A DNA stretch of 31,780 nt, from positions 1-31,780 of IMG/VR virus record IMGVR_UViG_3300048014_000013; one strand, given 5' to 3'. Position 1 is the stretch's first letter, and each line of letters starts with the position of its first letter. Below the pieces are notes generated by a model. The model saw only the letters and a program-made list of their open reading frames with translations, did not search any database and was not told where the DNA came from. The stretch comes from a virus. Positions 3,159 through 31,780 of the stretch are shown here, piece by piece. The position numbers and the translations under genes are program-made.

Positions 3159-4331
3159 TCACACCCACTTGTTTTGTTTGATTGCTGAGAGAACAAGAGA
3201 AGTAACATCCGCCGCCGACAGTTGGTAGTCTTTATCAAACGGACTGAACATTGTGTGTATCTTCTTCCAGTGTTCAGCCGGTGGTTGTACTTTCATGATC
3301 GCCTTATAAAAATGAGCGGCAAACTCTTTAGCCTCATGGGTAGTTAGCTTGTTGATGAAAATAGTGGTATCAAACCTGCCGGGGCGATAGAACTCAGGCG
3401 GCATTGATTCCAGATGGTTAGACGTTCCTACCGTGAGAACCCGCGCCCGGTGCTCTTCAAGCCACCAGAGAAGCTGAGCCAACATTCTCTTTGTGGTTCC
3501 TTCCATATCCCCAGAAAACAACTTCTCGCACTCGTCCAACAAAAGTACGCAAGGTCCTTCTGCTTCTACTGACCGAAGGAAGTTAGTCATGTTTCGTTCG
3601 GACTCGCCTATCCATTTCGTAAGTAGACCTGATATATCGAGCCGAAACAGCGGCAAGTTCCACTCACGAGCTATCACCTTGGCGGCGAGACTCTTTCCAG
3701 TGCCGGGGAAACCATACAACATTACTCCCCGAGGACGAAACATTTGGGGAGTATTGGGTCCAAGAAAATAATCTCGGCTCTCAGTAACCCAATCTTTCAA
3801 GTCAGAAGGCATCATGTAGAAGTCATACTCTGTGCTTACCGGTTCCAAACCCAGAGTCGGACCCGCTATCAACTTACGGGTTTCGCCGATGCCCTTGCAA
3901 TCAATTGCACCGGTACGAGCCATCGTAAGCTGACAAATCTCACTGGCAGCTTTCAGGGTGAGGCCCTTCAAGCACTTGACGATGCCATCGACGTGGTTGG
4001 GCAAAGTGATACTTTCTACGTAATCTCGAATGAACTTGTCGGGGGTCGGAAGTATCCCGGCGTTGAAAATCAAACTGTCATGCTTATCCGGGGGATTCAA
4101 GACTACAAGGCAAGTACCGGCCTCCATCATCTTGTGATAGACAGCCGGTGTTGCGTCAGCAGGGTCTGATGTGAAGTAGATGAGAGAGCCGGGAAAAGCA
4201 CCACTTTTGTTGACGGGTATCTTCATCGGCTTTTTACTGGTCCAAAACTTGAGAACAGCTTCAAAGTTCAGGGCGTCGTCATAGTGTACGCCGATGATCG
4301 GGATTGAAGCGTTCACTGCATCAATAAACAT
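3159..4331 (-). CDS. Ycf46-like AAA+ ATPase, 390 aa
   Basis: This is a single AAA+ module. Walker A is GFPGTGKS (residues 207-214), Walker B is VLLLDE (262-267), sensor 1 is TSN (303-305), and the arginine-finger motif is YRPGRFD (315-321). GESERNM (242-248) is the usual element between the Walker motifs. The N-terminal 190 residues, with a 'LKGLTLKAA' helix near 121-129, resemble the N-terminal part of Ycf46-type ATPases. Such enzymes couple ATP hydrolysis to remodelling of protein or nucleic-acid complexes; the substrate is unknown. The gene has its own promoter (4381-4409) and a GGAGG 10 nt before ATG 4331. A 14-bp repeat lies inside it at 3896-3909, read as A-I-D-C. Confidence 0.9.
   Translation of the reverse strand: MFIDAVNASIPIIGVHYDDALNFEAVLKFWTSKKPMKIPVNKSGAFPGSLIYFTSDPADATPAVYHKMMEAGTCLVVLNPPDKHDSLIFNAGILPTPDKFIRDYVESITLPNHVDGIVKCLKGLTLKAASEICQLTMARTGAIDCKGIGETRKLIAGPTLGLEPVSTEYDFYMMPSDLKDWVTESRDYFLGPNTPQMFRPRGVMLYGFPGTGKSLAAKVIAREWNLPLFRLDISGLLTKWIGESERNMTNFLRSVEAEGPCVLLLDECEKLFSGDMEGTTKRMLAQLLWWLEEHRARVLTVGTSNHLESMPPEFYRPGRFDTTIFINKLTTHEAKEFAAHFYKAIMKVQPPAEHWKKIHTMFSPFDKDYQLSAADVTSLVLSAIKQNKWV
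3896..3909. repeat. 14-bp near-palindrome, copy 1
   Basis: TGCAATCAATTGCA on the plus strand: six-base arms TGCAAT/ATTGCA around CA. It lies inside the AAA+ ATPase gene, read on the minus strand as A-I-D-C. Confidence 0.85.
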
Positions 4332-4341
4332 TACTTGTCAT
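4321..4341 (-). CDS. Six-codon leader ORF overlapping the ATPase start
   Basis: ATG 4341 lies 8 nt after the loop-displayed AAGGAG (4355-4350) and encodes MTSNVY before TGA. It overlaps the start codon of the AAA+ gene in another frame. It could couple translation to the ATPase or be fortuitous. Confidence 0.3.
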   Translation of the reverse strand: MTSNVY

Positions 4342-4345
4342 CCTC

Positions 4346-4358
4346 CCCACTCCTTGGG
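4346..4358 (-). promoter_or_regulatory. Ribosome site in a hairpin loop (CCCA-AGGAG-TGGG)
   Basis: On the minus strand CCCA/TGGG form the stem and AGGAG the loop. A second inverted repeat, TCGGA-CATAT-TCCGA (4373-4359), lies directly upstream near the expected transcript start. A separate GGAGG (4346-4342) serves the ATPase ATG. Confidence 0.5.
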
Positions 4359-4380
4359 TCGGAATATGTCCGATATAAAG

Positions 4381-4409
4381 AGCGTATCACCCAGAAGATA
4401 ATTCGTCAA
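4381..4409 (-). promoter_or_regulatory. Promoter P3 (TTGACG-17-TACGCT)
   Basis: TTGACG at 4409-4404 and TACGCT at 4386-4381, spacing 17. The upstream block AAAAATAACTC is shared with P7 and nearly with P5. It drives the AAA+ ATPase and starts 16 bp past the terminator at 4425-4477. Confidence 0.75.
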
Positions 4410-4424
4410 GAGTTATTTTTGTGG

Positions 4425-4731: not shown

Positions 4732-4761
4732 TTTTATAGCTCCCTTTCCTAAGATGTTTCG

Positions 4762-4790
4762 ATAGTATCACTCAGAAATCCATTCGTCAA
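4762..4790 (-). promoter_or_regulatory. Promoter P4 (TTGACG-17-TACTAT)
   Basis: TTGACG at 4790-4785 and TACTAT at 4767-4762, exactly 17 bp apart. A 14-bp repeat (4799-4812) lies just upstream of the -35. It overlaps the stop codon of RNase H and faces the gene-free region 4332-4786. Confidence 0.8.
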
Positions 4791-5311
4791 GCATTTTTTG
4801 CAATCAATTGCAAATGTTGTTCTGCTTCTTTGCGGGCAATGGTGGCGTGACGATCACACCAGATATTAGCGCCAGCCCTATCGCCGGAGCCTTTGCCTTG
4901 ATGGCCTTTGACGTGCTTCAGCCATAGCTGACCCCACGATTGATGGATGCGAAGCTGTGTGTTCTTAGCAAAGTCTCGTGCTGTTTTCGTGCCTTGATGG
5001 TTGGCAATCGGGCAATCCGTACCCTTGCTAACATAACCACCAAAACTCTTCATAAGGCCAAGAGCCTGAACTGAGTCACTCTGAGCTACGATGATTACTC
5101 CAGCTTGATGAGGTAAGGCGTCTAGAGACAAAACAATAGCCTCACACAGGGCTATACACTCGGCCTCTACGTTTGTAGCTACTGGCCAGTTTATAGGATG
5201 GTAGCCGTTGAACCACATGGTATTGTTGCGGGACCAGAAAGCATAACCAGCCGCGCCATCCCGCCATGAAGCATCAGAAAAAACTGTAATCAGGTTGGTA
5301 GTCTGACTCAA
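4787..5311 (-). CDS. rnhA: Ribonuclease H, 174 aa
   Basis: RNase HI fold, cleaving the RNA strand of RNA-DNA hybrids, for example primers. The catalytic set is visible: D13 in FSDAS, E51 in TNVEAECIAL, D79 in AQSDSVQAL and D153 in NIWCDRHA, with H137 in VKGHQGKGSGD. Length is close to the usual 150-160 aa plus a short tail. The start is TTG 5311 with AAGGAC six bases upstream; the nearby ATG opens only a two-codon frame. It overlaps the stop of the 59-aa gene. Its C-terminal codons (QLIA) are written by a 14-bp repeat and its stop lies inside promoter P4. Confidence 0.9.
   Translation of the reverse strand: MSQTTNLITVFSDASWRDGAAGYAFWSRNNTMWFNGYHPINWPVATNVEAECIALCEAIVLSLDALPHQAGVIIVAQSDSVQALGLMKSFGGYVSKGTDCPIANHQGTKTARDFAKNTQLRIHQSWGQLWLKHVKGHQGKGSGDRAGANIWCDRHATIARKEAEQHLQLIAKNA
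4799..4812. repeat. 14-bp near-palindrome, copy 2
   Basis: TGCAATCAATTGCA, perfect arms. It lies in the last codons of RNase H (Q-L-I-A) and 8 bp upstream of the -35 of promoter P4. Confidence 0.85.
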
Positions 5312-6398: not shown

Positions 6399-6673
6399 CA
6401 CTCACCCCACGTCGTCTTGCTTTGGATTAGGGAGCCTGTTACGCCCGCGCCCATGCGTTTCTGAGCGCCGTTGAATTTCGCGGCCTCATAATGGTTGGTC
6501 GTAAATTCAAGCTCTACCAAGCTGCTGTTTTTGCTGGAGTGAGCTACCTTAGCAACGTAGATCGGGATGTCCTGTTCCGAGCACGATACGCAATCGTTGA
6601 CGTTACCCGGCTTGTTGAATCCTAGAATAAAGAGTTCGCCGCATTTGCGGCACTTACGCTGGGGTATCGGCAT
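6398..6673 (-). CDS. Small zinc-ribbon protein, 91 aa
   Basis: ATG 6673 overlaps the previous stop (TAATG). Two cysteine pairs form a zinc-ribbon: CRKC at residues 8-11 and CVSC at 28-31. The rest is polar. It could bind nucleic acid or another protein; no enzyme motif is visible. It sits in the unit driven by promoter P5. Confidence 0.7.
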   Translation of the reverse strand: MPIPQRKCRKCGELFILGFNKPGNVNDCVSCSEQDIPIYVAKVAHSSKNSSLVELEFTTNHYEAAKFNGAQKRMGAGVTGSLIQSKTTWGE

Positions 6674-6963
6674 TATGCCCTCCGTTTGCTGAGAATCCTG
6701 TCATCGATAGATGCAGTTTGGTTGACGGGGTACTGGCGAGCTACCTTCGGATAAGTTTTGGATTTGAGATTGAACATTTCAGCGCGAAGCGGCATTAAGA
6801 GTTCGTCCGCGAAAGGCCGAAGAGCGCAATGCAACTTGGCGATTTCAGCTTCAGCACGGGCAATTCTTACCTGCAAGCCAGCGGCGTTAGAAAACGCCCA
6901 GCCGTTGATAGCAACCCTGATTGGTTGGAAGATAACCTGTTTTTGACGTTCGGTAAGGTGCAT
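6673..6963 (-). CDS. Unknown protein, 96 aa
   Basis: I start this at ATG 6963 (MHLTERQKQVIFQP), because it lies 7 nt after AAGGAG, whereas the longer frame from 7017 would run through the promoter P5 core. It is a helical, basic protein with a long amphipathic segment (VRIARAEAEIAKLHCALRP). Not recognised; a small DNA-binding or regulatory role is possible. First gene of the P5 unit; its TAA overlaps the next ATG. Confidence 0.7.
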   Translation of the reverse strand: MHLTERQKQVIFQPIRVAINGWAFSNAAGLQVRIARAEAEIAKLHCALRPFADELLMPLRAEMFNLKSKTYPKVARQYPVNQTASIDDRILSKRRA

Positions 6964-6966
6964 TTG

Positions 6967-6980
6967 CCCACTCCTTTGGG
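6967..6980 (-). promoter_or_regulatory. Ribosome site in a hairpin loop (CCCA-AAGGAG-TGGG)
   Basis: Same design as at 3091-3104: a 4-bp stem CCCA/TGGG holds AAGGAG as the loop, 7 nt before ATG 6963. Confidence 0.6.
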
Positions 6981-6995
6981 TTTCGACCTGAAATA

Positions 6996-7024
6996 AGTGT
7001 AAGCCACCTGTAGCCATTCGTCAA
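6996..7024 (-). promoter_or_regulatory. Promoter P5 (TTGACG-17-TACACT)
   Basis: TTGACG at 7024-7019, TACACT at 7001-6996, spacing 17, with AAAATAACTC upstream as in P3 and P7. The 14-bp repeat at 7034-7047 sits 9 bp upstream of the -35. Drives the genes from 6963 to RNase H. Confidence 0.8.
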
Positions 7025-7218
7025 GAGTTATTTTGCAATTGATTGCACTCGCAGGAATCGTAGAACTTTCCACAGCCTCCTACGCAGAGCCATGCGGAGT
7101 ATGCTGGATCGAGATTACGATCATCGGTAATGGGCAGATGTACAAGGTTCGGTTCTTCTTTGACCAGTACGCGCCCACCCACAGGTCGTACCAAGCTAGA
7201 AACATTCTTATCTTCCAC
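7021..7218 (-). CDS. Small cysteine-containing protein, 65 aa
   Basis: I choose GTG 7218 as start (AGGAG 7 nt upstream); the longer frame from 7233 begins with TTG inside that ribosome site. Residues near 43-55 contain C-x3-C-x6-C-x-C, a possible small zinc site. Its end (ECNQLQNNS) is written through a 14-bp repeat and the upstream block of promoter P5. An alternative frame from a nearby ATG would give 46 aa and looks less protein-like. Confidence 0.55.
   Translation of the reverse strand: MEDKNVSSLVRPVGGRVLVKEEPNLVHLPITDDRNLDPAYSAWLCVGGCGKFYDSCECNQLQNNS
7034..7047. repeat. 14-bp near-palindrome, copy 3
   Basis: TGCAATTGATTGCA, perfect arms; inside the end of the 65-aa gene (C-N-Q-L-Q) and 9 bp upstream of the -35 of P5. 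Confidence 0.85.
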
Positions 7219-7259: not shown

Positions 7260-7679
7260 TTATTTTGCAACCAATTGCAACTGACGTTTAGCTGTCTTCA
7301 GTATGGCTTCGTTCTCTTTCAGTTGCGCCCGCAAAATCTTTGAGCGTTTGGTTCTACGGGCTACAAAAGAGTGGTAAGCGTCGAAAGGCTTGGCGTGAGC
7401 ATACTTCTTGCGGCCTTCGTTCAAAACAAATCTCTTCATGCCATGCGCCCAGAGCCACACGCCTTTGGGTGTGGTTTTCAAGACTTCAAATTTGTACAAA
7501 TGAAGTGGAGAAGGCTTGGATAGGAGGTAGAAAGCCCAGCTTACCGGTTCGTCTTCTTCAAAGGTATAGTTAGGTGAGTAGCGCCATGGGTCTACTCGAT
7601 ACCAGTAAACCTTTTGGTTAGCTTCTTTGTCCACTGTTTTCACCATCGGCACTGCCTTTACTCCGAGTACGGTTGGCAT
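7260..7679 (-). CDS. Unknown phage protein, 139 aa
   Basis: ATG 7679 with AGAGG upstream, within the end of the HNH gene (about 60-nt overlap, different frame). The pattern VLKTTPKGVWL, then KRFVLNEGRKKYA, then a basic helical end (ARRTKRSKILRAQLKENEA) is one I associate with a common phage protein of unknown function. It is likely a compact beta domain plus a C-terminal coiled coil. The last residues LQLVAK are written by a 14-bp repeat variant. Confidence 0.7.
   Translation of the reverse strand: MPTVLGVKAVPMVKTVDKEANQKVYWYRVDPWRYSPNYTFEEDEPVSWAFYLLSKPSPLHLYKFEVLKTTPKGVWLWAHGMKRFVLNEGRKKYAHAKPFDAYHSFVARRTKRSKILRAQLKENEAILKTAKRQLQLVAK
7266..7279. repeat. 14-bp near-palindrome, copy 4 (one changed base)
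   Basis: TGCAACCAATTGCA: the left arm has C for T. It lies at the end of the 139-aa gene and 9 bp upstream of the P6 -35. Confidence 0.7.
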
Positions 7680-8609: not shown

Positions 8610-8623
8610 TGCAATTGATTGCA
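8610..8623. repeat. 14-bp near-palindrome, copy 5
   Basis: TGCAATTGATTGCA, perfect arms, between the stop of the lysozyme-like gene and promoter P7; non-coding. Confidence 0.85.
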
Positions 8624-10837: not shown

Positions 10838-10851
10838 TGCAATTGATTGCA
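10838..10851. repeat. 14-bp near-palindrome, copy 6
   Basis: TGCAATTGATTGCA, perfect arms, just after the stop of the 67-aa gene in the 106-bp gap 10749-10854. A lone half-site TGCAAT is also present nearby at 10819. I see no gene in that gap. Confidence 0.85.
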
Positions 10852-13642: not shown

Positions 13643-15117
13643 TAGATCGTGAACCCCGAAACGTCTAAGGTGTTATCGCGCTGAGACATAATGCCCCGCG
13701 TAAAATCTAGGACATACATTTGGGAACCGTCAGGTAACTGAATTATATCACCTTTTTCCACACTTCTGTCTTCAACAATTGTGAGGTTTTGCGTGTTGGC
13801 GGCAGCGGCCTGATATATGAGTTCCCGCGTGCATACAGCCTGAGCATGGGCCTCGTTCATAATGAAGTCGCACTCTTCTGTTACGGGATTGTCTGCCCAT
13901 GCCAGCGCCGTACTGCTGTAGGCTTCTGAGGTGTTACGAGCGTGCACGTAAGAGTAAGGTACGCCCCAAATCTCATAGTCACCCGTTCCCATAGCTGCCA
14001 TGATGGTGAAGATAGCGATGTCACAAGCAGCTTCAATTCTCTTGCCCAAAGGGATCGTAGTTCCCGGAGCCGTAGTTACTCCATCGGGGTAGCTTGCAGC
14101 TATTAGCTTGGTGAGAAAAGCTGCTGCAAGTACAACGTAAGTCCAGCCCAATGTGATGATAGTGAGTCGCCCGATAGCCGGAGTCTGCTGGTCCCACAAT
14201 TCCAAAAAACAAGGCAGGAATACAGTACCTCCGATACGGAACTGATTCACGCTAGTTTTGGGACGCAAGTAAGTCTGCGTTGCACACTGCGAACCATCAG
14301 CGGAAAACGCAAGGTGCTTCCAGAATACTGGAGTAAAAAATCCCGCCGTGAGCGTAGTCTCAGCCAACTTACGAGCTTGCTGCTCTGCAATAGTCAAATT
14401 AGGGTCAAGCCATTGCAGAATATACCTAGTAGTTGGGGGACGACTGCGAGTAGCCCCAAACTTGACGAGTCGAGTATTATCCAGAACATGATCTGGCAAT
14501 CGATTGCTAAGGTCTTTGCTAACGCCTTTGAGCCGCCCAATAGCATCTATAACCGGAGTCTGACCCAGAGGGAGAAAGAGCGTGCCCATCATCTCCCACG
14601 CGCTTAGATTAGCAAGCTGTGTGTTTGTGTGGGAGGTCGTAATGGCGCTGACTGGGATGAGCAAATCTTGGGCTACCAAGCCCACTTGATTGGCTACGTC
14701 TGTAATTATCGTGCTGATATTGGTGCTCTGCGGGTACTGATTTGTAACGTACTTTGTGAGTTTCCAGATGTCTTGTGTCTCCCGCGACCGCGCCGTAATC
14801 GTTAGAGAGTTCTTACCAAACGATTTGGTGATGCTAGTTATCGTCTCGATAACCATAATTGACAGGTTTTTGCCGTCTTCCATTGTTGAAACGATTTGCT
14901 GCGAAGAGGGCATAGCAGCACCGTCAAACTCGTTATTGTAGTCAAGGGTAATAGTTAGGGTTGCTGAAGTCTGCTTGCCGCCAGACACCCAAGGCGAGAT
15001 GTCGATGCTGTCTTTAGGAATGCCGTTTTGAACATCTTCTATAGACGCAGTGGGGTGGTACCAGACTTGGGTATTGCCTTTGGTGTCTAGCGGACTGGCG
15101 GACCAACGACTATCCAT
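13642..15117 (-). CDS. Tail hub / tail-tip protein, 491 aa
   Basis: I place the start at ATG 15117 (MDSRWSASPLD), which overlaps the previous TAA (TAATG), rather than at upstream codons in the same frame. Early beta-rich domains (SATLTITLDYNN; SIMVIETI; KNSLTITARSRE) followed by a region about 360-440 and a final DRSVEKGDIIQLPDGSQMY segment fit a phage tail-hub (gp27/gpD-like) architecture. Order after tape measure and distal-tail genes supports this. Not matched to a specific family. Confidence 0.65.
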   Translation of the reverse strand: MDSRWSASPLDTKGNTQVWYHPTASIEDVQNGIPKDSIDISPWVSGGKQTSATLTITLDYNNEFDGAAMPSSQQIVSTMEDGKNLSIMVIETITSITKSFGKNSLTITARSRETQDIWKLTKYVTNQYPQSTNISTIITDVANQVGLVAQDLLIPVSAITTSHTNTQLANLSAWEMMGTLFLPLGQTPVIDAIGRLKGVSKDLSNRLPDHVLDNTRLVKFGATRSRPPTTRYILQWLDPNLTIAEQQARKLAETTLTAGFFTPVFWKHLAFSADGSQCATQTYLRPKTSVNQFRIGGTVFLPCFLELWDQQTPAIGRLTIITLGWTYVVLAAAFLTKLIAASYPDGVTTAPGTTIPLGKRIEAACDIAIFTIMAAMGTGDYEIWGVPYSYVHARNTSEAYSSTALAWADNPVTEECDFIMNEAHAQAVCTRELIYQAAAANTQNLTIVEDRSVEKGDIIQLPDGSQMYVLDFTRGIMSQRDNTLDVSGFTI

Positions 15118-15728
15118 TACACCTGCACCTTTGAGACCATCTTCCAAAATACCGATACTGGCTTGTCTGTCCAGCCAAAAGGGTTGCCGTCGCCATCTAG
15201 GGAATTAATGAGATCGTTCAAGGCTATTCCCTGAGACTTGAACCCCGCCATAGCGGCCATTACTGGACTTCCGGCATTACCAGTCACAACATCAATCATC
15301 TGCACGTTATAGCCGATAGCGTTGCTGTAGGACGGGTACCACTGCATGTATCCGATAGAGGGATCGACCGGATTCATGAAGCACGCCAGAAGCAACCTAA
15401 GCTGTGTGATGGGCATTGCCAGACCGCCTAGAGATAGCCACCTCTCTTCACAGGTGATGTCTCGGATGTCTCCAGACCACAACTTGCTTGACGACCCCTG
15501 TAGAGACTTGGTGCTGGCATAGGTGGGTGCGATCATCACATCACCATCCATGTTCGTCCACTCATCTGGAGGGTACTCATAATCAAAAGCCCCGAGAGTA
15601 GGGTGAACTATCTTTCCCTGACCGTTGGGATAAGAAACAGCAGGCATTACCAGCGTCGAAGCTGAGGATGTTACCGGTGTGGAAGCAGCGGTTACAGTGA
15701 AACTTGCATTCGACGTGAGTGTAGCCAT
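15117..15728 (-). CDS. Minor (distal) tail protein, 203 aa
   Basis: ATG 15728 has AGGAG four bases upstream; a longer frame would start at TTG inside the 14-bp repeat. It has a serine/threonine-rich start, then GAFDYEYPPDEW and WSGDIRDITCEERW. A tail-tip position between the Ig-like proteins and the hub suggests a distal tail or adaptor role. No family is recognised. Confidence 0.6.
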   Translation of the reverse strand: MATLTSNASFTVTAASTPVTSSASTLVMPAVSYPNGQGKIVHPTLGAFDYEYPPDEWTNMDGDVMIAPTYASTKSLQGSSSKLWSGDIRDITCEERWLSLGGLAMPITQLRLLLACFMNPVDPSIGYMQWYPSYSNAIGYNVQMIDVVTGNAGSPVMAAMAGFKSQGIALNDLINSLDGDGNPFGWTDKPVSVFWKMVSKVQV

Positions 15729-15741
15729 GTAACTCCTGTTC

Positions 15742-15755
15742 TGCAATCAATTGCA
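15742..15755. repeat. 14-bp near-palindrome, copy 7
   Basis: TGCAATCAATTGCA, perfect arms, in the 29-bp gap between two tail genes, just upstream of the ribosome site of the 203-aa gene. Confidence 0.85.
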
Positions 15756-16900: not shown

Positions 16901-17844
16901 GTTACGCTCGCAGTCACGGTAGAGTCGGCAGTATCGCCCACACCGTAAAGAACTTGAACTGTAGCCGTGCCAGTAGCATCCGTAGTGCTCTGACTAGATT
17001 GAATCGTGCCAGACCCCGAAATTGACCAATCTACCAACTGGCCCACGCACAACTCACCTTGCTGGCCTGTTACTTGGCACTTGTAGGTAGCCAGTGTGCC
17101 TTGAGCGCATACTGAGTTTGCAATCAATTGCACAGATGAGATCGCATACGGTACTACGTCAAGAGACCAAACATTTAAGGTGTAGGGTGTGGTCAATCCA
17201 TCACCGTGCAGAGAGACTACAGTACCGAGATCAGGGGCGTAAACTGCTATATCGCCCGCCTCCCCAAGATGGAAAACAGGAGACATAACTTTACTTTCTA
17301 TGTCATAAAAAGTAAAAGTCAAATCCGACCCGTCAACTACCTTGGAAAACATTAGCTCTGTCGCGGTGCGACCAATATAAACGTTGGTTTGTTGGTTTAC
17401 ATACACTAAATCTTTAATGCTTTTACCGTCGCTCATCGACACTACTGCGGTACTAGAAAACTGACCGTAACGAGCGTTGGGAAAGTCAACAAAAACAGGA
17501 GAACCCGGATACGAGTTACCAAACCCGGAGAAAGGGTCTGTGTAGACATAAGCACATAAAGCATAAGGCTCATAATAATAGAACCCACTGTAATTGATGT
17601 AAGTTGCCAGTTGCTGGCTTTGTGTTACCCAAGTCCAGCGGCCTATGCCGTTGTTTCCAAAGAAATTTCTGCCTACGTCCACGCATATCCCATCGAGAGA
17701 CACGAGAGTAAAGGCTCCTTGTAACCAGACAAGCATACCCCAGTAAGGCACCCACATGGCATACGCAGTGTTGCTATCGGTCCCTGAGACCGGAGACGCA
17801 TCACGATTCACCAAGCTGAAAGGCCCTGATAGTTTAGTAATCAT
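16894..17844 (-). CDS. Tail protein with Ig-like (Big_1) C-terminus, 316 aa
   Basis: ATG 17844 overlaps the preceding TGA (ATGA). The N-terminal 220 residues are beta-rich and propeller-like (AMWVPYWGMLVWLQGAFTLV; DIAVYAPDLGTVVSLHGDG). The C-terminal 80 residues, with VDWSISGSGTIQSSQSTTDA followed by GTATVQVLYG, match the Big_1/invasin Ig-like pattern. A likely tail-surface or adhesion protein. A 14-bp repeat encodes its V-Q-L-I-A. Confidence 0.7.
   Translation of the reverse strand: MITKLSGPFSLVNRDASPVSGTDSNTAYAMWVPYWGMLVWLQGAFTLVSLDGICVDVGRNFFGNNGIGRWTWVTQSQQLATYINYSGFYYYEPYALCAYVYTDPFSGFGNSYPGSPVFVDFPNARYGQFSSTAVVSMSDGKSIKDLVYVNQQTNVYIGRTATELMFSKVVDGSDLTFTFYDIESKVMSPVFHLGEAGDIAVYAPDLGTVVSLHGDGLTTPYTLNVWSLDVVPYAISSVQLIANSVCAQGTLATYKCQVTGQQGELCVGQLVDWSISGSGTIQSSQSTTDATGTATVQVLYGVGDTADSTVTASVTC
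17119..17132. repeat. 14-bp near-palindrome, copy 8
   Basis: TGCAATCAATTGCA, perfect arms, inside the 316-aa tail gene; read as V-Q-L-I-A. Confidence 0.85.
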
Positions 17845-18620: not shown

Positions 18621-21600
18621 TTATCTCCCTGCATACGAATCAGCGACGATGCCGCTTACTACGTCTTTCACTGTCCAGTTTGCCATATCCGGGTGAAGCA
18701 TGAGAGTCGGCATACTTGCGCCCGGTGCCGGGGTTGTAGCAGCATGGGAACCGACACCCCCTACCATGCCACCCGCCGCAAACTTAGGCATAGGCACACC
18801 ACCCGGTAGTGCAATTGATTGCACAGGAAGAGTGTCATTGTTTATCATGTTCAGCAACGGAAGCCACTTACGGGTTTGTTTGGCCCGCGTGATGTGCTCG
18901 CCGGGGGATACCAGAATCGGAATGTTGTCTGAGGTATCGTGGCCCCGACCTCCGATAACTCCACCATGAGCAAATCCCAACCCACTGGATATTGCACTGT
19001 CTATTTCCGGTCCAAAGTCTTTTCCTGCGATGTTAGTCAGACCTGAAAGAGCCTTGGAAGCATCGCCTACCGCGTTGCTTTGTGCATAGTCAAAAGGGTC
19101 TAATTCCATGGCGTTAGGATCGCCAGAAGCTCCCCCGGAAGATGGAACTGATGGTGTGGCGTCGGGTAAACCCGACAAAGAATTCAAGTCTACTTGAGGC
19201 AAAGGTCGTCTTCCGGACTGCGCTGCCGGTGCTGCTGCCCCTGTCGCCGGAGAATCTGGAGAATCCGAACCTACTTGGTAGTCTGCGGTGTCGGTGTAGT
19301 CCCCCACAGGACCTTGACTGCGAGCTTGCCTTTTAATAGACGCTAGATTGTTTGGCCCACCGGTAGGGGTGAGTCCCAAAAGTCTGAGGGTTTTGTTGGC
19401 TATCTTGTCTTGTAGAGCCTGTCCAGTTGGGATATTGAAAGACGGTGCAGCGCCCGATCCTGTACCTCCTGAGGAGGTAGCAGCCTTGGTTAGGCCATCT
19501 ACTAGAGTACCGATTTTTGCTCCTGTAGCGCCCCCCAGCGCACCACCAATCTCCGAGGGTAGGGTAGTAGTACCTCCGCCCCCTAGCGCGTTCTGAAGGC
19601 TCTCAGAAGCAGTGTAAGAGGTAGTACCCCCAACACCCACAGTAGAGGCTTTGCTCATACGATCATCGTGACGAGCCAACAGAGCCGCCGTTACTTCAGG
19701 AGTGAGATGAATGGGGTTATTTACTGTGCCTACTGGCTCTTTATCACCCAACCCAAACACTTTGCCCAGCCCGTCGAATATCGAGGTACCCTGTATAGGC
19801 TTGCCGTTCTCGTCTAACTTACTGGTTGAGTCGCTGATGCTGTTGAACAACTTCTTGGTTACGTTCTCAGACAGGCCACCGAGAACAGTCTTTTCCAAGC
19901 TCTTACCGAGTTCGACCAGCGTATTCTGTGCCTGACGGAAGTTCGTAACGAGGTTAGTAAGGGCACCGGATACCGAAGTCTCGAAACTGTCCCTGATCTT
20001 CTGGCCATACGTTTCGATACTATTGCCCAACTGCTCGTACTGATTCTCCAGTTCCTGACCTTGAGTTTTCAGACCCTCTAACTGATTGGCGAAGCTGTCG
20101 GTGTTGCCTCCGGGGTTGAGTTTGAGGAAAGCCAAAGCACTCTCTTCTACTTCACGAACTTTAGCGGCCAGCACGTCAATCTTGCGAGCCACTACATCCT
20201 GTTGCTGAGTGATGAGATCGTTATTGGCCAGCATCTTCTGCTGCTCCGTAAGGCGTCCGTTAGCAGTAGCGCCATTCAGGTTATTGCGCTGGGCCTCTAT
20301 CAGAGCGTTAGACCGGCGTTCTTCTTCGGACGACTGGCGATCCATCTCTTTCAGACGGGCCTGCAAGTAGTCAGCAGCTTTGCCAGATTCGATCAGACGC
20401 TTAGTGCCCTCGTCTATATCAGGAGCAAAAGCCTTTACAGACTTAGCAATTTTCTCCCATTTCTCATCAATGCCTACAAGTTCTCCGAGATAGCCTCCAG
20501 TGTCTTTGGCGACCTGAACATTCAGATCAGCTATCCGCTGATTAGCTGCAAGAATTTCCTTGGCTTGCTCAAGCTCCAAATCTTTGCGCTGAAGAGAAGC
20601 CGTTTCTTGCTCTTCAGTTATGGCAACTTGAGCTTGTGTAGCCGTGATAACCGCAGCATCCCTTTGCTGTCTTGTAAGAGCACCATTCTTTGTAGCGTCT
20701 TCCGCCTGTTTTGCTTTGGCTTTTAGAACGTCGATCTGGGCATCTTCGTTCGATTTGATGATGGCGCGGCGTTTTTCGTAGTACGCCAGTAGACCTATCT
20801 GCCCAGTGTCATAAGATTCTTTAGCGCTATCAAGAACAACTTTGTTGGCGTTTTGGATATGCTTCGCCGACTCTTCCGCACTATTGACTATCGTTTGATC
20901 TGCGTTCTTTACATCTTCTGCATGGCGACTGGCCTGTGCTGCAAAAAGCTCTCTGCCTTCGTCCGCAGCCTTATACTGAGCGTCTCCTACCTTAGCTTTG
21001 AGACGAGTTGCGTCATCTCCCTTAGCTCCACCAAGGTAGTTGAGGTTGAACAACAATTCTTTCAAGTCTTTTTGATCGCCTCTATTGGCGGTTGCGGCCT
21101 CGGCTGCTTTTAGAGCAATACTTGTGAGAACCGTCTGGGGGTCTGCCTCTCCTTTTACAGGCTTGTAGTTGGGGTTGAAGCGTTCTTTGACGGTGTCGCG
21201 GAAAGCGTTGTACGCTTCTTGAAAAGCAGGAGAACGAAGCCCAAATCCATCAGGGCCTACAGAGCCATTAGCGAACGTCTTGGCTCTCTCTGCATCGGCG
21301 TTATCGCTGTCTATCTGGAAATCATTTTTATCTTTGGCGTCCTGCGCCGCTGCTCTTTGTGCCGGGGTAGACGTAGCCGAGGCCAGAATCTTTTTGGCCT
21401 GATTGGTTACGTCGTCTTTTGCAGCGTTGTATCGCTGCTTTGCAATCTCTTTTTCTTCATCTGTACCGTCTTTAGCAGCTTGGAGCGCCCGATCAGCATC
21501 CAACTTTCTTTGTTCTTTGATACGCAAAACTTCGTAAGGATTCTTACCTGCTTCTTGACTGTCTTTGTCTTTTTGTTCCTGCACCATCTGAGCGACTGTC

Positions 21601-23285
21601 TTAGGGAAGGATAGCAGGGTGTTATTGATGATGAGGCTAAGGGTTCCTTTGATGTAGTCGCCGATGAAATACTTGATAGCTTTGCCCGCTCTTTCAGCAA
21701 AAGAAATGATGCCGTCGAACAGAGCGTGAAAATCCTTGTCTAGGGCTTCTACGTCAACGCCAGCTTCTTTCAAACTCCCAGAGATTATACCGAGAGGCCG
21801 GTCGGGTATAGAAAGAAGAGCGTCTTTGAACTCCTTGATCTTGTCAATTAGCACCGTGAAAGGCTGCAATACAAATAGAATTTCACCCCGAAGAGTCTCA
21901 CCCCAAGTAGCATCTTTTACTGAGTCGTGCAACTTTACAGTGAAGGTTCCAATAGCCGTGATGAGGAGAGCAAGAGCTACAAGCACGATACCCCAAGGGT
22001 TACGAGCCATTGCTACAGTAAGACGGTTCATGGCTACAGTAGCCAGATCGGTGGCCGTAGCAAACACCCCTTCTGTAGCAGCAACATACAAAGTTACTTG
22101 GGCGTAAGCAATGAGTTCGGTCGCCAGCCCAACGACTAACTTTATGTTGGCTATGAGCGATTCTCCGAAAGCCGTTTGAAAGAAAGCTGCTGTGCCTGAT
22201 GCTCCAACAAGAGTAACAAATGCCGCAGCAAGCGCACCAATCTCTTTCCAAAAACTAGCAACAATCAAAGCTGCTTCTCTCATCGCGCTTGCAACTGATT
22301 GCACGATTTTACCCAGACGCTGGCCCCCATCACTAGCAGAGTTGGCCTCGTCTGACATAGACGTTAGTTGCTCAAGAAATAAAGAAAGCTCCTGAACAAT
22401 AGCGAGATAAGCCGGGAGAAGCTGCTGGCCTAGAGACGTGCTGAGATTGGTAGAGAGCCGTTCGAGCGAAGTAAGCTGCTTGCCTACGTCACCCATAGCT
22501 TCTGTGTAAGTGCCTGCCCGACGAGTGGCATTCTCCATTACAGCCGCGAGTACAGCCTCAGACTGTTCTCTCTGGGTTAGTTGGGCTGCTGATTTACCAA
22601 GGGTAGCCGCATATTTAGACTCTGCCTGCTCTAGGCGAACATTGATGCCGAGAAAGCGAAGGTCCATCGTACTACGAACTTCAATGGCATGGATGAGGCG
22701 CTGGAAAGTCTGGCTGCTATTTTCCCCAGAAATTAAAGCCAAATCCTGCGCGGCGCGAGCAAGATCAGCAGCTTTTGCCAGATCGATATTAGCTGTGATA
22801 AGAGTAGCGAGGGACTGTCGGGACGCCTGAGCAGTGATGCCCATGCGCTGTACAGCGTTGTCAGCGTTCTTGAGTTCCGCTGCCGTATAACCAGCATTCT
22901 TGCCTACTACACTGAGAACCGTGCCCAGCACTTGAGCGCGGGCCGCGTTGTCTGCCAGTTCTTTGAAAAAGCGAATACTTTCGAGCGCGAGAAAACCCCC
23001 AGCCAAAAACTTTACCGCGCCGGTTAGTCCTTCTACTGAAGTCTTGAGAGTTTCAATTGAACCCGCTTGTGTCTTGAGAGATTCTGCGGACTCTTTGGTA
23101 TTTTTTGTGAGTTCTTTCTGACCATCAGCCATCGTTTTGATGACCTTGCCAGCGTTATTTAGGCTAGAGAAGTCAACGCCCTTTACCGCAGCACTGATGT
23201 CTCGGAAGTCTTTGGCAAGACCCTGCAATTGAGCCTTGGTATCCTGCCCAATGCTAATAAGAATTTTCAGTGAGGGATCGGGCAT
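18621..23285 (-). CDS. Tape measure protein, 1554 aa
   Basis: ATG 23285 behind AGGAG (spacing 6). Long helical, alanine/glutamine-rich protein. Hydrophobic segments near 85-100 and 330-450 (including WGIVLVALALLITAIGTF) and extended coiled-coil regions about 560-1150 are typical of tail length determinants with membrane-active parts. The C-terminal FAHGGVIGGRGHDTSDNIPI with LVSPGEHI is the standard tape measure end. It assembles inside the tail tube with the G/G-T chaperones; its length would predict a long flexible tail. Two 14-bp repeats lie within it. Confidence 0.92.
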   Translation of the reverse strand: MPDPSLKILISIGQDTKAQLQGLAKDFRDISAAVKGVDFSSLNNAGKVIKTMADGQKELTKNTKESAESLKTQAGSIETLKTSVEGLTGAVKFLAGGFLALESIRFFKELADNAARAQVLGTVLSVVGKNAGYTAAELKNADNAVQRMGITAQASRQSLATLITANIDLAKAADLARAAQDLALISGENSSQTFQRLIHAIEVRSTMDLRFLGINVRLEQAESKYAATLGKSAAQLTQREQSEAVLAAVMENATRRAGTYTEAMGDVGKQLTSLERLSTNLSTSLGQQLLPAYLAIVQELSLFLEQLTSMSDEANSASDGGQRLGKIVQSVASAMREAALIVASFWKEIGALAAAFVTLVGASGTAAFFQTAFGESLIANIKLVVGLATELIAYAQVTLYVAATEGVFATATDLATVAMNRLTVAMARNPWGIVLVALALLITAIGTFTVKLHDSVKDATWGETLRGEILFVLQPFTVLIDKIKEFKDALLSIPDRPLGIISGSLKEAGVDVEALDKDFHALFDGIISFAERAGKAIKYFIGDYIKGTLSLIINNTLLSFPKTVAQMVQEQKDKDSQEAGKNPYEVLRIKEQRKLDADRALQAAKDGTDEEKEIAKQRYNAAKDDVTNQAKKILASATSTPAQRAAAQDAKDKNDFQIDSDNADAERAKTFANGSVGPDGFGLRSPAFQEAYNAFRDTVKERFNPNYKPVKGEADPQTVLTSIALKAAEAATANRGDQKDLKELLFNLNYLGGAKGDDATRLKAKVGDAQYKAADEGRELFAAQASRHAEDVKNADQTIVNSAEESAKHIQNANKVVLDSAKESYDTGQIGLLAYYEKRRAIIKSNEDAQIDVLKAKAKQAEDATKNGALTRQQRDAAVITATQAQVAITEEQETASLQRKDLELEQAKEILAANQRIADLNVQVAKDTGGYLGELVGIDEKWEKIAKSVKAFAPDIDEGTKRLIESGKAADYLQARLKEMDRQSSEEERRSNALIEAQRNNLNGATANGRLTEQQKMLANNDLITQQQDVVARKIDVLAAKVREVEESALAFLKLNPGGNTDSFANQLEGLKTQGQELENQYEQLGNSIETYGQKIRDSFETSVSGALTNLVTNFRQAQNTLVELGKSLEKTVLGGLSENVTKKLFNSISDSTSKLDENGKPIQGTSIFDGLGKVFGLGDKEPVGTVNNPIHLTPEVTAALLARHDDRMSKASTVGVGGTTSYTASESLQNALGGGGTTTLPSEIGGALGGATGAKIGTLVDGLTKAATSSGGTGSGAAPSFNIPTGQALQDKIANKTLRLLGLTPTGGPNNLASIKRQARSQGPVGDYTDTADYQVGSDSPDSPATGAAAPAAQSGRRPLPQVDLNSLSGLPDATPSVPSSGGASGDPNAMELDPFDYAQSNAVGDASKALSGLTNIAGKDFGPEIDSAISSGLGFAHGGVIGGRGHDTSDNIPILVSPGEHITRAKQTRKWLPLLNMINNDTLPVQSIALPGGVPMPKFAAGGMVGGVGSHAATTPAPGASMPTLMLHPDMANWTVKDVVSGIVADSYAGR
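18810..18823. repeat. 14-bp near-palindrome, copy 9
   Basis: TGCAATTGATTGCA, and 16 bp symmetric arms when flanking G/C are counted; inside the tape measure gene as V-Q-S-I-A. Confidence 0.85.
22290..22303. repeat. 14-bp near-palindrome, copy 10 (one changed base)
   Basis: TGCAACTGATTGCA: left arm TGCAAC. Inside the tape measure gene, read as V-Q-S-V-A. Confidence 0.7.
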
Positions 23286-23294: not shown

Positions 23295-23986
23295 CTAGTA
23301 ATCTTTTCCCCGCAAACCGTCTATGTACTTCTGAAAACTTTTCGGGTCTGAGTTCTGCGACTGCCTTATGGATATGGTGAGGTCGGCCAGTTGTGCCTTG
23401 TGCCGCTTGCCCACCCGCTCCACTAAGTCCTGTAGAAGAGGTATGGTAAAGCGGCGTAGATCACTTAGACGATACCCCTCAGATAGTAGCAGGTCTACCC
23501 CTGCTGTGAGGCTATCTGTGAACTCTCCAATACCACCGTCTTGTTTTCTTTTGCGCTGTCGCTCACGGATAGCTGCCGCAGTTGAGCCATCACCTGTGAT
23601 ACGAGCGACAGGGCCTTTTTTGGGTCCGGTACCGACGCCTTCCAAATCTCTACCAGTGCAATCAATTGCACGGTGACAGACATATTGTGCTGGATGTGGG
23701 CGGCAGCTTCTGCCAGGTCTTCTTCGTCCGCCGCCATCGCAATGATTTTGGCGCAAACATCGGGAGCCGCCAGCAGAACAGGGCCGATGTCCAAGTTCTC
23801 GCCCTTGCTTTCTACCGCTGAAGTATAGAGCTTGATAAACACGTCTTGGTGTTCGGCTACCAGCAACACCATCTCTTCTAGGTTTAGGGGGCGGATGTTC
23901 AAGTGGACGCCGGGGGCTATTTCTACGGAGGCCGTAGATGCTCCGAGCATCTGCACAATACTCACTTTATTCAACTTCGATGCCAT
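23295..23986 (-). CDS. Tail assembly chaperone G-T (made by -1 frameshift), 230 aa
   Basis: Readout begins at ATG 23986 and slips -1 at A-AAA-AAG (23621-23615), the dnaX-type heptamer in the correct phase (CCA AAA AAG in zero frame). After the slip, the frame reads GPVARITGDGS and runs 106 codons to TAG 23295: 124 + 106 residues. The extension is basic and helical, as expected for the T part. This pair, before the tape measure, is the hallmark of long-tailed phages: the minor G-T product binds the tape measure and tube protein during assembly. Confidence 0.88.
23495..23986 (-). CDS. Tail assembly chaperone G, 163 aa
   Basis: ATG 23986 behind GGAGG. Acidic-helical protein with alternating helices, starting MASKLNKVSIVQMLGAST and containing IRPLNLEEMVLLVAEHQDVF. 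Zero-frame product stopping at TAG 23495; the same start yields G-T by frameshift. A 14-bp repeat sits inside (VQLIA). Confidence 0.88.
   Translation of the reverse strand: MASKLNKVSIVQMLGASTASVEIAPGVHLNIRPLNLEEMVLLVAEHQDVFIKLYTSAVESKGENLDIGPVLLAAPDVCAKIIAMAADEEDLAEAAAHIQHNMSVTVQLIALVEIWKASVPDPKKALSLVSQVMAQLRQLSVSDSAKENKTVVLESSQIASQQG
23615..23621 (-). promoter_or_regulatory. -1 frameshift slip site A-AAA-AAG
   Basis: The heptamer is in X-XXY-YYZ phase with the G frame (codons AAA 23620, AAG 23617), 120 nt before the zero-frame stop. I did not identify an obvious downstream pseudoknot. Confidence 0.85.
23657..23670. repeat. 14-bp near-palindrome, copy 11
   Basis: TGCAATCAATTGCA, perfect arms extended to GTGCAAT/ATTGCAC; inside the chaperone gene as V-Q-L-I-A. 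Confidence 0.85.
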
Positions 23987-26301: not shown

Positions 26302-26748
26302 CTACCGGTTTGGCCTGTTTTGGACGGGTACTGACCATCGTTGCGCCCAGAAGATCAGTCCCCCCTTGAGTGCCGCAGGAGCTTCCATCTGGAAGTGGTA
26401 AAAGTGTCCCGTCACACTTCTAGTGCCAAGAATAGCAGTACGCAAACTGTCGAGCAACAGAAAACTTGCGCCCTTAGTATCTGTCCTGATAGGCGCCTCT
26501 CCTCTCTGTAAAAGCATGAGAGTGAAGTGAATCTCCCCAGAAATACCCATCTTTGTCGAGGGTCCAGGGTCAGTAACAGACCTCATGCCGTTGTAGATGA
26601 GGCCCACAGCCGGGAGATTTACCGCCTTGAGGCGATCTGCAAGGTTTTCTTCATCATACACAAAAACGGTCTTAGTCTCAAACTCTGCAATTGATTGCAC
26701 GAGAGTTTGGACTTCCATCATGACCTGAGTTGCCATTGGACTAGACAC
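26302..26748 (-). CDS. Tail terminator-like protein, 148 aa
   Basis: The frame begins at GTG 26748 (AGAGG upstream); ATG 26736 is an alternative. The middle (VGLIYNGMRSVTDPGPST, then GISGEIHFTLML) and the LLLDSLRTAIL helix and HFYHFQMEAP motif fit a known phage tail-completion/terminator pattern. It would cap the tail tube at its head-proximal end. A 14-bp repeat encodes its V-Q-S-I-A. Confidence 0.65.
   Translation of the reverse strand: MSSPMATQVMMEVQTLVQSIAEFETKTVFVYDEENLADRLKAVNLPAVGLIYNGMRSVTDPGPSTKMGISGEIHFTLMLLQRGEAPIRTDTKGASFLLLDSLRTAILGTRSVTGHFYHFQMEAPAALKGGLIFWAQRWSVPVQNRPNR
26686..26699. repeat. 14-bp near-palindrome, copy 12
   Basis: TGCAATTGATTGCA, perfect arms; inside the tail terminator gene. 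Confidence 0.85.
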
Positions 26749-28742: not shown

Positions 28743-29498
28743 CTACTGACTCTCTAATGGTAGCAGATTCTTGTTCTTCAATGCAATCTTTTCTTGGCGA
28801 TGAAAAGCAATATGCTCGGAGTGAGTCATCAACTCAAGATTATCGGGATCGTTATTGCCTTTGTCTTCATCTTTATGATGAACAATCTCGTCATCAGCAT
28901 GGTTCTTTCCGGGTCCATGTTTATAGAGAGGCCGACCTAGCTTTTTTTCCATGACTACTATGTGCTCAAGCACATAACCGTCTTCAGCGGCGCGAGGATG
29001 TTCTGGCCTGTAAATACGAACATAGCCTCTTGAGGTAGTCTGATTTGTGCCTTTGAAGTAAGGTGAGTTTTCACCTTCTTGATACTGAGGTTCATGCCCA
29101 GACAAGTACCGCGTGGGGAGTCCCATAACAGACACTCTATCGCCTTTGTTATCTTTTTTGGTTTCCGTAGCCAGAGGAGTGTCTTGCCCGCACCCACAAA
29201 AACACTTGCCATGAAAAATCTTTTTGAGATCGTCTAACTGTGAAGCAATGCTTTTGTTGTAGCTGCCTTTCGTGCGATGAGAATTGGGTACAGTTTTACC
29301 TCGCTTCCAGTGCCCAGTCAGACGCATAACCGGCAAGCCTTGAATTGCTTGATCTACTCCATTTCGGTTTTTGTAGTAAGTGGCTACAGCCGTGGCTCCT
29401 CCACAACCGCAATGGCACATCCCAAAAAAATTGCAATTGATTGCACCACAGATACACTTGTTCTGCGCCTTGTAAATCTGATACTTAGTCATAAGCAT
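28743..29498 (-). CDS. HNH homing-type endonuclease, 251 aa
   Basis: ATG 29498 with GGAGG 7 nt upstream (second ATG two codons later). The N-terminal half has two copies of a zinc-binding module: CxCxC ... GLP-x-x-x-L/Y-x-x-GH (about 28-63 and 99-135). The C-terminal HNH domain shows EHIVVME (H179), IVHHKDEDKGNNDPDNLELM (H207, H208, N220) and HSEHIAFH (229-233). It cuts DNA, probably a homologous phage lacking the insertion. It has its own promoter, a regulated ribosome site and its own terminator, so it is a mobile cassette between capsid and neck genes. Confidence 0.9.
   Translation of the reverse strand: MLMTKYQIYKAQNKCICGAINCNFFGMCHCGCGGATAVATYYKNRNGVDQAIQGLPVMRLTGHWKRGKTVPNSHRTKGSYNKSIASQLDDLKKIFHGKCFCGCGQDTPLATETKKDNKGDRVSVMGLPTRYLSGHEPQYQEGENSPYFKGTNQTTSRGYVRIYRPEHPRAAEDGYVLEHIVVMEKKLGRPLYKHGPGKNHADDEIVHHKDEDKGNNDPDNLELMTHSEHIAFHRQEKIALKNKNLLPLESQ
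29432..29445. repeat. 14-bp near-palindrome, copy 13
   Basis: TGCAATTGATTGCA, perfect arms; inside the HNH gene as A-I-N-C. Confidence 0.85.
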
Positions 29499-29504
29499 AA
29501 AAAT

Positions 29505-29559: not shown

Positions 29560-29568
29560 GCCCCGTGT

Positions 29569-30507
29569 TTACCGCGATCCCACCAAGCCTGTGTACTTAA
29601 CAATCGCGTTCACTTCTTCTATGGCGAAAGCCACGCGAGCCGAGAGCACGATGATGAAGCACCGACGCCGGATGTCCTTGGTGTACTCGATCTGGATATT
29701 CCGCTGAACACCGAAGATAAGGTTCATGGGGTCCGTAAAGAGGCCGGTCGTACCAGGCATCAGAGCCACAGGGGTAACCTGCGAGCCGAAGATGTACAGG
29801 GGCAGAGTGCCCTGAATGTTCTGGTCGCCCAGAGCACCCAGACGGCTGGCGTACTGGTCGCGCATCTCGGTCTCGTTGTCCACCGAGACAAAGTGCTTGA
29901 GAGCGGGCCGGTTGCGGAGATAGCGCGTCGGCATCGTCTTCAGAGCCGTCTTCACGGCGTTCTTGTCGAAAGCACCGTTGATGCTCGCCACGTTAGCAGT
30001 TGCCAACTTGATGAACCCGTTTTGCAGGGCCAAAAAGTTGTCGCTGCTGCTCGTGTCGCCAGTGAGAGCAAGCTCTTCCAGATCGAGCGCTGCACGCTCT
30101 GCGATCAGATCGACGATGGTCTGGTGCAGGCCACCTGCGCCGGTCTGAAGCGGAACATTGACGTTGCCGCGCTCGATGTTGTCCTCGATCACGTCGTAGG
30201 AAAGCTGAATCTCAGCCACCACTTCCGACGTGTTCAACTGGACCTGACCGAGATCGGGGCTGGTGCGCTGTGCATCGGAGAGCGCCGTGTACTCGGTACC
30301 AGCGTTCAGGATGCGGCTACCGAAGCCGAGCTTGTTGATCTTCATCTGAGGCGAAGTCATGGCCACCGTGCGGCAGGTAGTCAGAACTGTCGGGGTATCG
30401 ATCAGAGTACGAATAAACTGATCTGTCTGCTGGGGATTGAGACGGCCAGCAGTCTGCAAGTCCGCTAGTGCAAGGTCTGCCTTTTTGATGATGTCGCTGT
30501 TTTCCAT
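29569..30507 (-). CDS. Major capsid protein (HK97-like), 312 aa
   Basis: I start at ATG 30507 (MENSDIIKK), 10 nt after GGAGGG, which lies in the longer frame. The layout matches HK97-type coat proteins: N-terminal helix (IKKADLALADL), a beta-rich E-loop region, long spine helix (VDLIAERAALDLEELALTGD, a typical 'R-A-x-D-L-E-x-x-x-L-x-G-D' signature), a P-domain with YLRNRPALKHFVS, and a closing RRCFIIVLSARVAFAIEE. It builds the icosahedral shell. The 49 bp upstream hold no obvious promoter. Confidence 0.88.
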   Translation of the reverse strand: MENSDIIKKADLALADLQTAGRLNPQQTDQFIRTLIDTPTVLTTCRTVAMTSPQMKINKLGFGSRILNAGTEYTALSDAQRTSPDLGQVQLNTSEVVAEIQLSYDVIEDNIERGNVNVPLQTGAGGLHQTIVDLIAERAALDLEELALTGDTSSSDNFLALQNGFIKLATANVASINGAFDKNAVKTALKTMPTRYLRNRPALKHFVSVDNETEMRDQYASRLGALGDQNIQGTLPLYIFGSQVTPVALMPGTTGLFTDPMNLIFGVQRNIQIEYTKDIRRRCFIIVLSARVAFAIEEVNAIVKYTGLVGSR

Positions 30508-30575
30508 GTTCTGCCTACCCTCCAAGATATATGAATCTGTTTACCACTCCAGCCTAACTGCAAACCTTCAGTCCG

Positions 30576-31780
30576 TTAGCCGCGCCGTGCGCTCTTGCGG
30601 ATGAAAGCCGTATCGAAAGCTCCAGTGCGAAGGTCGCTGTCGGTCTTCTGAACAGGTACTCCACCATTGGCTGGAGTGTCTCCGGGAGCCGGAAGAGCAG
30701 CTACCGTCGAATTCAACTTCTGAGTTACAGTTTCCGACTTCACAACCAGCGCGTCAAGAACTTTCTTATCCTCAGCGCGAGAATCTGCAATCGATTGCAC
30801 GTCAGCTTTGAGAGAGGTAAGTCCCGCAAGAATCGCGTCCAACTTCGGGTCATCCGCCTTCACAACCGGCGTTTCCGTCTTGATAGTGCTGCCGTTGTGC
30901 TTCTTGTGCGTCATGGCCTGCTCGTCGGAAGACATTTTATTCCAGCCGTCCGTCGCCATGCACTCAGGGCAGTCGTCACCCTTAGCCGCCATCGCACCAG
31001 CAACATCGAAGTTACCCGTCTTCTCATTATAAGAAGCGGCCATCCACTTAAGCTTGTCGCCGGTAGAGAGAGTTCCCCACTCAGGTCCATCGGTGTATCC
31101 TTCCGGGGTCTTCGACATCGAATTCGCCAGATCGGTTACGTCAAGCATATCGGCCTTCTTTGCCATGTGGTTGTCTTTGTGAGCGGCTGCTATAACATCT
31201 GCACCCATGCCCTTTGCCTTCATTGCCATGCACTTCGCGCAATCTGCCATGTTGTCACCCTTCTTGGTGCGAGTATTGGTCGAGTCCATCAACCAGTCAA
31301 GCTTATCGTCAGTCCCCATCTTGTCCCAATCGTTCTGAGCCACTCCGGTTGGAGTATTGGTGAGGAGGTTCTTGAGCTTGGTAGTCATCATGGGACTGCT
31401 GATGTCATCCTGCTCGTCACCGTCTGCGGCTTTTTGAGTAAGCTGCTGGCGCAAAGTGATGTCTGCCTTGAAAGCCGCTGTCGGAAGCTGAGACACAAGT
31501 CCGAGAACATACTTTTTGAACCCGTCGCAGAGAGTCCCGATAGACTTGCCAGCCTCATCTTCGTCAGTGGCATTGGTGAGCGCCGAACAAATCTTAGAGA
31601 ATAGAGTGTCAAGAGAACTGTCCACACCCTGATAGAAACTGTTGGCCGATGCAGTAGCTCCGAAGTCAGCATCTTTCATGCCCTCATGTTGAGGCATAAA
31701 GCCCTTCACAGCCACCAACGTCTGGTCAGAGAGGCGAACCCAAGTCGCGCCGTCCAGAGAATCGACACCGGGCTGAGTGT
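30576..31780 (-). CDS. Scaffold/prohead-maturation protein, C-terminal part (5' end beyond window)
   Basis: The frame is open to the right edge, so the start lies outside; codons before TTG 31718 still read as protein (TQPGVDSLDGATW). It sits directly before the capsid gene and its length, charge and helical C-terminus with coiled-coil (LTSLKADVQSIADSRAEDKK) fit a scaffolding region, perhaps fused to an XkdF-like protease upstream. Counted from TTG 31718, residues 122-184 and 204-275 are an internal duplication, each with CxxC ... HxxxH or HxxH (C160, C163, H180, H184; C250, C253, H271, H274). A 14-bp repeat lies within. Confidence 0.6.
   Translation of the reverse strand, partial: TQPGVDSLDGATWVRLSDQTLVAVKGFMPQHEGMKDADFGATASANSFYQGVDSSLDTLFSKICSALTNATDEDEAGKSIGTLCDGFKKYVLGLVSQLPTAAFKADITLRQQLTQKAADGDEQDDISSPMMTTKLKNLLTNTPTGVAQNDWDKMGTDDKLDWLMDSTNTRTKKGDNMADCAKCMAMKAKGMGADVIAAAHKDNHMAKKADMLDVTDLANSMSKTPEGYTDGPEWGTLSTGDKLKWMAASYNEKTGNFDVAGAMAAKGDDCPECMATDGWNKMSSDEQAMTHKKHNGSTIKTETPVVKADDPKLDAILAGLTSLKADVQSIADSRAEDKKVLDALVVKSETVTQKLNSTVAALPAPGDTPANGGVPVQKTDSDLRTGAFDTAFIRKSARRG
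30786..30799. repeat. 14-bp palindrome, copy 14
   Basis: TGCAATCGATTGCA, fully palindromic (centre CG). Inside the scaffold-region gene as V-Q-S-I-A. Confidence 0.85.

Follow-up and report, generated by a model that had tools for sequence, protein, structure and literature searches.

Dispersed 14-bp palindromes as candidate operators of an unannotated core protein in a group of large tailed phages

Genome-wide repeated regulatory sites are best described in the Cluster A mycobacteriophages (L5, Bxb1), which carry 20-30 scattered stoperators per genome, few at promoters and most not; their motif varies among relatives and tracks the regulator, and an autoregulatory site lies upstream of the regulator gene (PMC6550527). 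The virulent T1-like phages (Stevie, T1, TLS) also have dispersed repeats, of 22 or 21 bp, whose role was left open by the authors, who likened them to stoperators (PMC4319613, PMC11447400). In Bacillus subtilis, the helix-turn-helix (HTH) protein Noc occupies scattered palindromic Noc-binding sites (NBS) and acts chromosome-wide (PMC8429893). Here we analyse a 31,780-bp linear fragment of a viral genome from IMG/VR (IMGVR_UViG_3300048014_000013; the whole fragment is hereafter the window), with genes almost all on the minus strand and a dispersed 14-bp palindrome, TGCAAT-NN-ATTGCA. The window's capsid protein is 64% identical to those of the Stenotrophomonas phages DLP_3 and DLP_5 (DLP3 and DLP5 below) and Summit. 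We propose, at a probability of roughly 0.55, that a phage-encoded and probably dimeric HTH protein, DLP05_067 (067 below; PHROG 17202), uses the palindromes as dispersed operators. Sequence statistics show sites that occur throughout the genome at even spacing and co-vary with 067; one lies at its own promoter, and about 10% sit at about -51 of sigma70 promoters.

The preliminary description of the window named L5 stoperators as the closest precedent, and the likeness stands for the many scattered copies at promoters and elsewhere, the autoregulatory site and the motif that co-varies with its regulator, here in two switches confined to the recognition helix; it fails for the tie to lysogeny, the asymmetry and the fixed orientation. 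L5 sites, 13-14 bp long, have no dyad symmetry, bind a monomer and follow the direction of transcription, whereas the sites studied here are palindromic, have no strict orientation and are spaced more evenly than chance; the likely reader here, unlike that of L5, belongs to an unannotated family in a replication/recombination module. The T1-like repeats are similar in being genome-wide in virulent phages, but they are asymmetric, mostly intergenic and one-directional, as opposed to palindromic and mostly intragenic. ParB-parS and Noc-NBS share the scattered palindromic sites of 14-16 bp; Noc, however, is a ParB-family CTPase, whereas 067 members have no ParB Pfam match. No earlier description of the palindrome was found in the open-access literature, subscription papers being outside the search.

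The palindrome in the window and in related phages

All 14 sites of the preliminary description were recovered (Table 1), 12 with perfect arms and two (7266, 22290) with one mismatch, and the reported mix of centres was borne out (five CA, six TG and one CG among the perfect sites). Virtually none would be expected by chance in the window, as had been claimed. Indeed, a search tolerating two mismatches brings the count to 16, whereas 100 dinucleotide shuffles average 1.4 and never exceed 5; the two that it adds, at 10317 and 14495, are no more than chance would supply and were omitted. The combination of arm and spacing is unique, as the next commonest 6-mer dyad in the window, at spacings of 0-13, has three copies. 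Synonymous shuffling of the window genes left 0.15 exact in-gene sites on average and never more than 2, compared with seven observed, and between DLP5 and DLP3 the site arms are 98.7% identical and the flanks 83%. These two results back the earlier claim that selection acts on DNA and not on protein. Chance or codon bias as the cause is ruled out by the dinucleotide and synonymous shuffles together with the dyad counts. An RNA hairpin was also rejected, since within any one genome the arms keep one sequence instead of varying in a compensatory way, which indicates a DNA site.

In relatives, genomes of 80-120 kb have 20-69 copies each, within and between genes. Among contigs found through the capsid protein, exact copies number 39 in G002 (97.8 kb), 47 in G012 (93.4 kb), 30 in G003, 22 in G016, 21 in G024 and 18 in G001 (52 kb), and the reversed control pattern has zero matches in capsid-found contigs. 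Within one mismatch the first three rise to 46, 50 and 43, DLP5 from 27 exact to 35 and Vibrio phage V-YDF132 from 25 to 33; Vibrio phage PG28 has 33 sites. Site positions are nearly all common to DLP5, DLP3 and Summit. In two bacterial metagenome-assembled genomes of 4-5 Mb, the 12 exact sites all fall in one phage-sized contig, and a host chromosomal motif was rejected on this ground. Absence from relatives and an equal frequency in the host chromosome were the outcomes that the preliminary description had set against its motif; as relatives have many such sites at conserved positions, and the remainder of the two bacterial bins has none, neither occurred. Unlike L5 immunity, the sites are shared by temperate phages, DLP5 and DLP3, of which DLP5 is a plasmid-like prophage (PMC5834331, PMC7326821), and by phages described as virulent, namely Rhodobacter phage RcZahn, with no evidence of lysogeny and taken as virulent by its authors (PMC8601537), and V-YDF132, described as lytic (PMC9413028).

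The sites are more regularly placed than uniform placement would give, with a coefficient of variation of the gaps of 0.37-0.57 in most genomes (P ≤0.001 in many genomes). When 366 gaps from ten genomes were pooled, those under 0.1 of the mean made up 0.5% (9.1% expected) and those over twice the mean 3.3% (13.4% expected). Noncoding DNA holds 162 of 588 sites, against 34 expected, and the majority are still intragenic. The CA:TG ratio of the centres is mixed in the window (5:6) and in DLP5 (18:8) and stands at 29:1 in G003 (L105-L109), where the CA centre lies on the coding strand in 29 of the 30 exact copies. This strong orientation bias, a possible functional asymmetry, is weaker in DLP5 and G012 and is not seen in the window.

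Candidate reader and lineage-specific half-sites

Some relatives keep the same 14-bp frame and 2-bp centre with another half-site (TCCAAT, GGCAAT, TGCAAC, TGCACT). The palindrome is TCCAATNNATTGGA in G025, G023 and G027, TGCACTTAAGTGCA in G021 and G032, GGCAATNNATTGCC in G043 (69 sites by profile), TGCAACNNGTTGCA in Rhizobium phage L338C (47 exact) and TGCAARCGYTTGCA in Pseudomonas phage PaMx31 (28 exact); G030 has a GTGATCTTACGATCAC-like site. One frame with different half-sites by lineage is the signature expected of a co-evolving, phage-encoded DNA-binding protein. An apparent switch to CGCAAT in L276 without a change of helix was rejected, as the profile of the whole contig is gtGCAATcgATTGCac. 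For G005 and G010 the profile search caught GC-rich repeats instead; orthologous sites remain there in degenerate form.

The reader is likely the core protein 067, encoded outside the window (L155:47761-48564), a family of unannotated function in the replication/recombination module. A gene-content comparison narrows the reader to a short list of core proteins on which 067 stays, and every complete genome in the comparison encodes 067, even where the MerR-like DLP05_060 is missing. The sites are probably read by a core protein of this module rather than by the product of a classical repressor gene. An AlphaFold2 model of 067 has a confident helical domain (predicted local distance difference test score 82.7 at full length, 91.9 for the domain), in which helix 86-94, a short turn and helix 98-113 form an HTH-like arrangement. 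A PDB sequence search gave weak matches only, with no bearing on DNA binding.

Across 42 TGCAAT-type 067 sequences, the putative recognition helix has six conserved positions, at which two of 252 cells deviate, and R99, K100, A101 and Y103 are near-invariant. The 067 of the TCCAAT phage (G025) carries R99S and Y103H, with 2 of 31 conserved positions altered elsewhere, and that of the GGCAAT phage (G043) carries K100T and A101I, with 0 of 31. In a control covering nine core families, 067 is the only one in which both switched phages break two invariant columns each, and its breaks are confined to the four residues above; in the eight other families, 5 of 238 comparable cells deviate. G030 was left out as too diverged, and searches for further TCCAAT or GGCAAT relatives of 067 returned the same contigs or distant members only. 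A dimer-type site, as had been claimed, here a palindrome for a phage-encoded protein, fits this covariation and the autoregulation evidence below.

Homologues of 067 also occur in bacterial contigs, L325 (Azospirillum sp. RU38E) and L327 and L328 (Reyranella), which suggests prophages or phage-plasmids in Alphaproteobacteria.

Sites at promoters

In 22 of 34 loci, compared with 3.8 expected (P ~1e-10), a cognate site falls between -200 and +50 relative to the start of the 067 open reading frame, mostly 60-120 bp upstream. Nine other core genes have no comparable upstream enrichment, the next being an SSB-like gene (8 versus 3.2 expected). Some 067 promoters (L298, L302, L294 and L311) have two or half-overlapping sites, an arrangement that suggests cooperative autoregulation.

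More generally, of 723 sites, 72 have a TTGAC that begins 7-10 bp downstream on the coding strand (~10%; ~3 expected by base frequency), and only two have one at this distance on the upstream side. A -10-like hexamer usually follows 16-18 bp beyond, and these promoters are near the sigma70 consensus (TTGACAAA, TATAAT-like). The fixed distance to the -35 box places the promoter-linked site near -51. The 067 promoter of G002 has the same layout, as do window sites 4799, 7034 and 7266, with TTGACG 8-9 bp downstream on the minus (coding) strand and, in two of the three, a -10-like hexamer after another 17 bp.

Early genes on the minus strand between 2363 and 8589 of the window are preceded by at least six TTGACGA promoters, whose spacers are much alike (TTGACGAAT...TGATAC). 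Three of them (2363, 3150, 4410) have no site; site-linked and site-free promoters therefore coexist.

Table 1. Palindromic sites and associated features of the window
Feature	Position	Strand	Sequence	Context
Site 1	3896..3909		TGCAATCAATTGCA	within AAA-ATPase gene 3159-4331(-)
Sigma70-type promoter	4762..4790	-	TTGACG-17-TACTAT	adjoins site 2 on downstream side
Site 2	4799..4812		TGCAATCAATTGCA	3' end of RNase H-like gene 4787-5311(-); -35 box 8 bp downstream
Sigma70-type promoter	6996..7024	-	TTGACG-17-TACACT	ahead of gene 6673-7017
Site 3	7034..7047		TGCAATTGATTGCA	-35 box 9 bp downstream
Site 4	7266..7279		TGCAACCAATTGCA, one mismatch	3' end of gene 7260-7679(-); TTGACG 9 bp downstream
Site 5	8610..8623		TGCAATTGATTGCA	intergenic; TTGACG 21 bp downstream (promoter 8588-8560, minus strand)
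Site 6	10838..10851		TGCAATTGATTGCA	between genes
Site 7	15742..15755		TGCAATCAATTGCA	immediately upstream of start of gene 15117-15746(-)
Site 8	17119..17132		TGCAATCAATTGCA	within gene 16894-17844(-)
Site 9	18810..18823		TGCAATTGATTGCA	within probable tape-measure gene 18621-23285(-)
Site 10	22290..22303		TGCAACTGATTGCA, one mismatch	within probable tape-measure gene 18621-23285(-)
Site 11	23657..23670		TGCAATCAATTGCA	within gene 23295-23756(-)
Site 12	26686..26699		TGCAATTGATTGCA	within gene 26302-26748(-)
Site 13	29432..29445		TGCAATTGATTGCA	within HNH endonuclease gene 28743-29498(-)
Major capsid protein	29569..30525	-		query for finding relatives
Site 14	30786..30799		TGCAATCGATTGCA, symmetric centre	within gene 30576-31778(-)

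The HNH endonuclease gene is an insert between the capsid and tail gene blocks; as it contains site 13, the motif can occur even in a probable mobile gene. Two contigs of metagenome sample 3300047655, L005 and L256 (~52 and ~51 kb), look like halves of one phage near that of the window, and L256 carries the 067 gene, the start of which a site precedes by 95 bp. The genes for PPDK, a tyrosine phosphatase and DLP05_142 (DLP5: L155, L156) form a conserved block in most relatives that is missing as a unit from G032, L338C and PaMx31.

Competing explanations and significance

If 067 is the reader, it would bind the palindromes and regulate its own gene. It would control initiation at promoter-linked sites, most likely by damping strong promoters of the host RNA polymerase, and intragenic copies could serve as transcription roadblocks or as bridging or looping points. 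The whole phage genome would then be under one regulator, much like a stoperator system but without the link to lysogeny. Several points weigh against this proposal. Binding, dimerisation and the direction of regulation are predicted for 067 from sequence. Neither the full-length nor the domain-only model has a significant Foldseek match and 067 has no Pfam match, so that its HTH assignment is a putative one. The covariation involves two half-site switches in reasonably close relatives and, with only two such lineages, is strong but not decisive. The palindrome is not recognisable in the 067-bearing loci G040, G041, G042, G045 and G046. Finally, most sites are intragenic and evenly spaced, and promoter control alone is therefore insufficient.

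In the main rival, 067 might chiefly shape phage DNA by bridging, condensing or positioning it, perhaps for replication or packaging, as Noc does from scattered palindromes on the Bacillus chromosome, with promoter effects secondary. An even spacing in which short and long gaps are both under-represented, mostly intragenic sites, the motif in phages described as virulent and a 067 gene in the replication/recombination module all agree with it, and the Noc-NBS complex is the highest-probability Foldseek match to full-length 067, although not a significant one (0.41, E 2.5). The domain-only model, however, loses the Noc match and has ParB only at E 8.4, 067 has no CTPase/ParB_N domain, and the fixed 7-10 bp to -35 boxes and the autoregulatory site favour transcription control. 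We regard genome organisation as somewhat doubtful in place of the operator role, with which it may coexist. Alternatively, 067 could activate from about -51 by touching RNA polymerase while intragenic copies titrate it or store it silently. A strict spacing found only on one flank of the -35 box would suit an activator, but the linked promoters are already near the sigma70 consensus and the evenly spaced, conserved intragenic copies are left unexplained, which makes this unlikely. Partition centromeres, an alternative in the preliminary description, would here belong to a plasmid prophage and be read by a phage ParB; in favour, DLP5 is a plasmid-like prophage with ParB-domain proteins (PMC5834331). 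This is now very improbable and, for ParB, largely refuted by the patchy occurrence of ParB_N, which only 10 of 39 relatives have and which complete-size motif carriers, G006 and G009 among them, lack; the motif also occurs in phages described as virulent. We rejected DLP05_060 with much the same conviction. It is an annotated transcriptional regulator with an HTH and is found in most relatives, but it is missing from the motif carriers RcZahn, Y1_11, L291, L294, L297 and L311, its recognition helix varies among TGCAAT phages, and no site lies upstream of its gene in 26 loci.

To conclude, large tailed phages of one group, whether virulent or temperate, look to have an unrecognised genome-wide control system, for which we favour dispersed operators of 067. 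More tentatively, an unannotated core family may tile 80-120 kb phage genomes of both lifestyles by way of the evenly spaced palindromes, with lineage-specific self-recognition codes, as a chromosome-organising system that couples genome architecture to transcription. The operator reading gives PHROG 17202 a testable function and a residue-by-residue prediction of its DNA code, and the cultured phages DLP5, DLP3, V-YDF132, PaMx31 and L338C offer direct test beds for the role of scattered sites, a question already raised for virulent phages by the T1-like group. The dispersed sites are not a lysogeny device only, and dispersed operator systems are thereby shown to be more than that.

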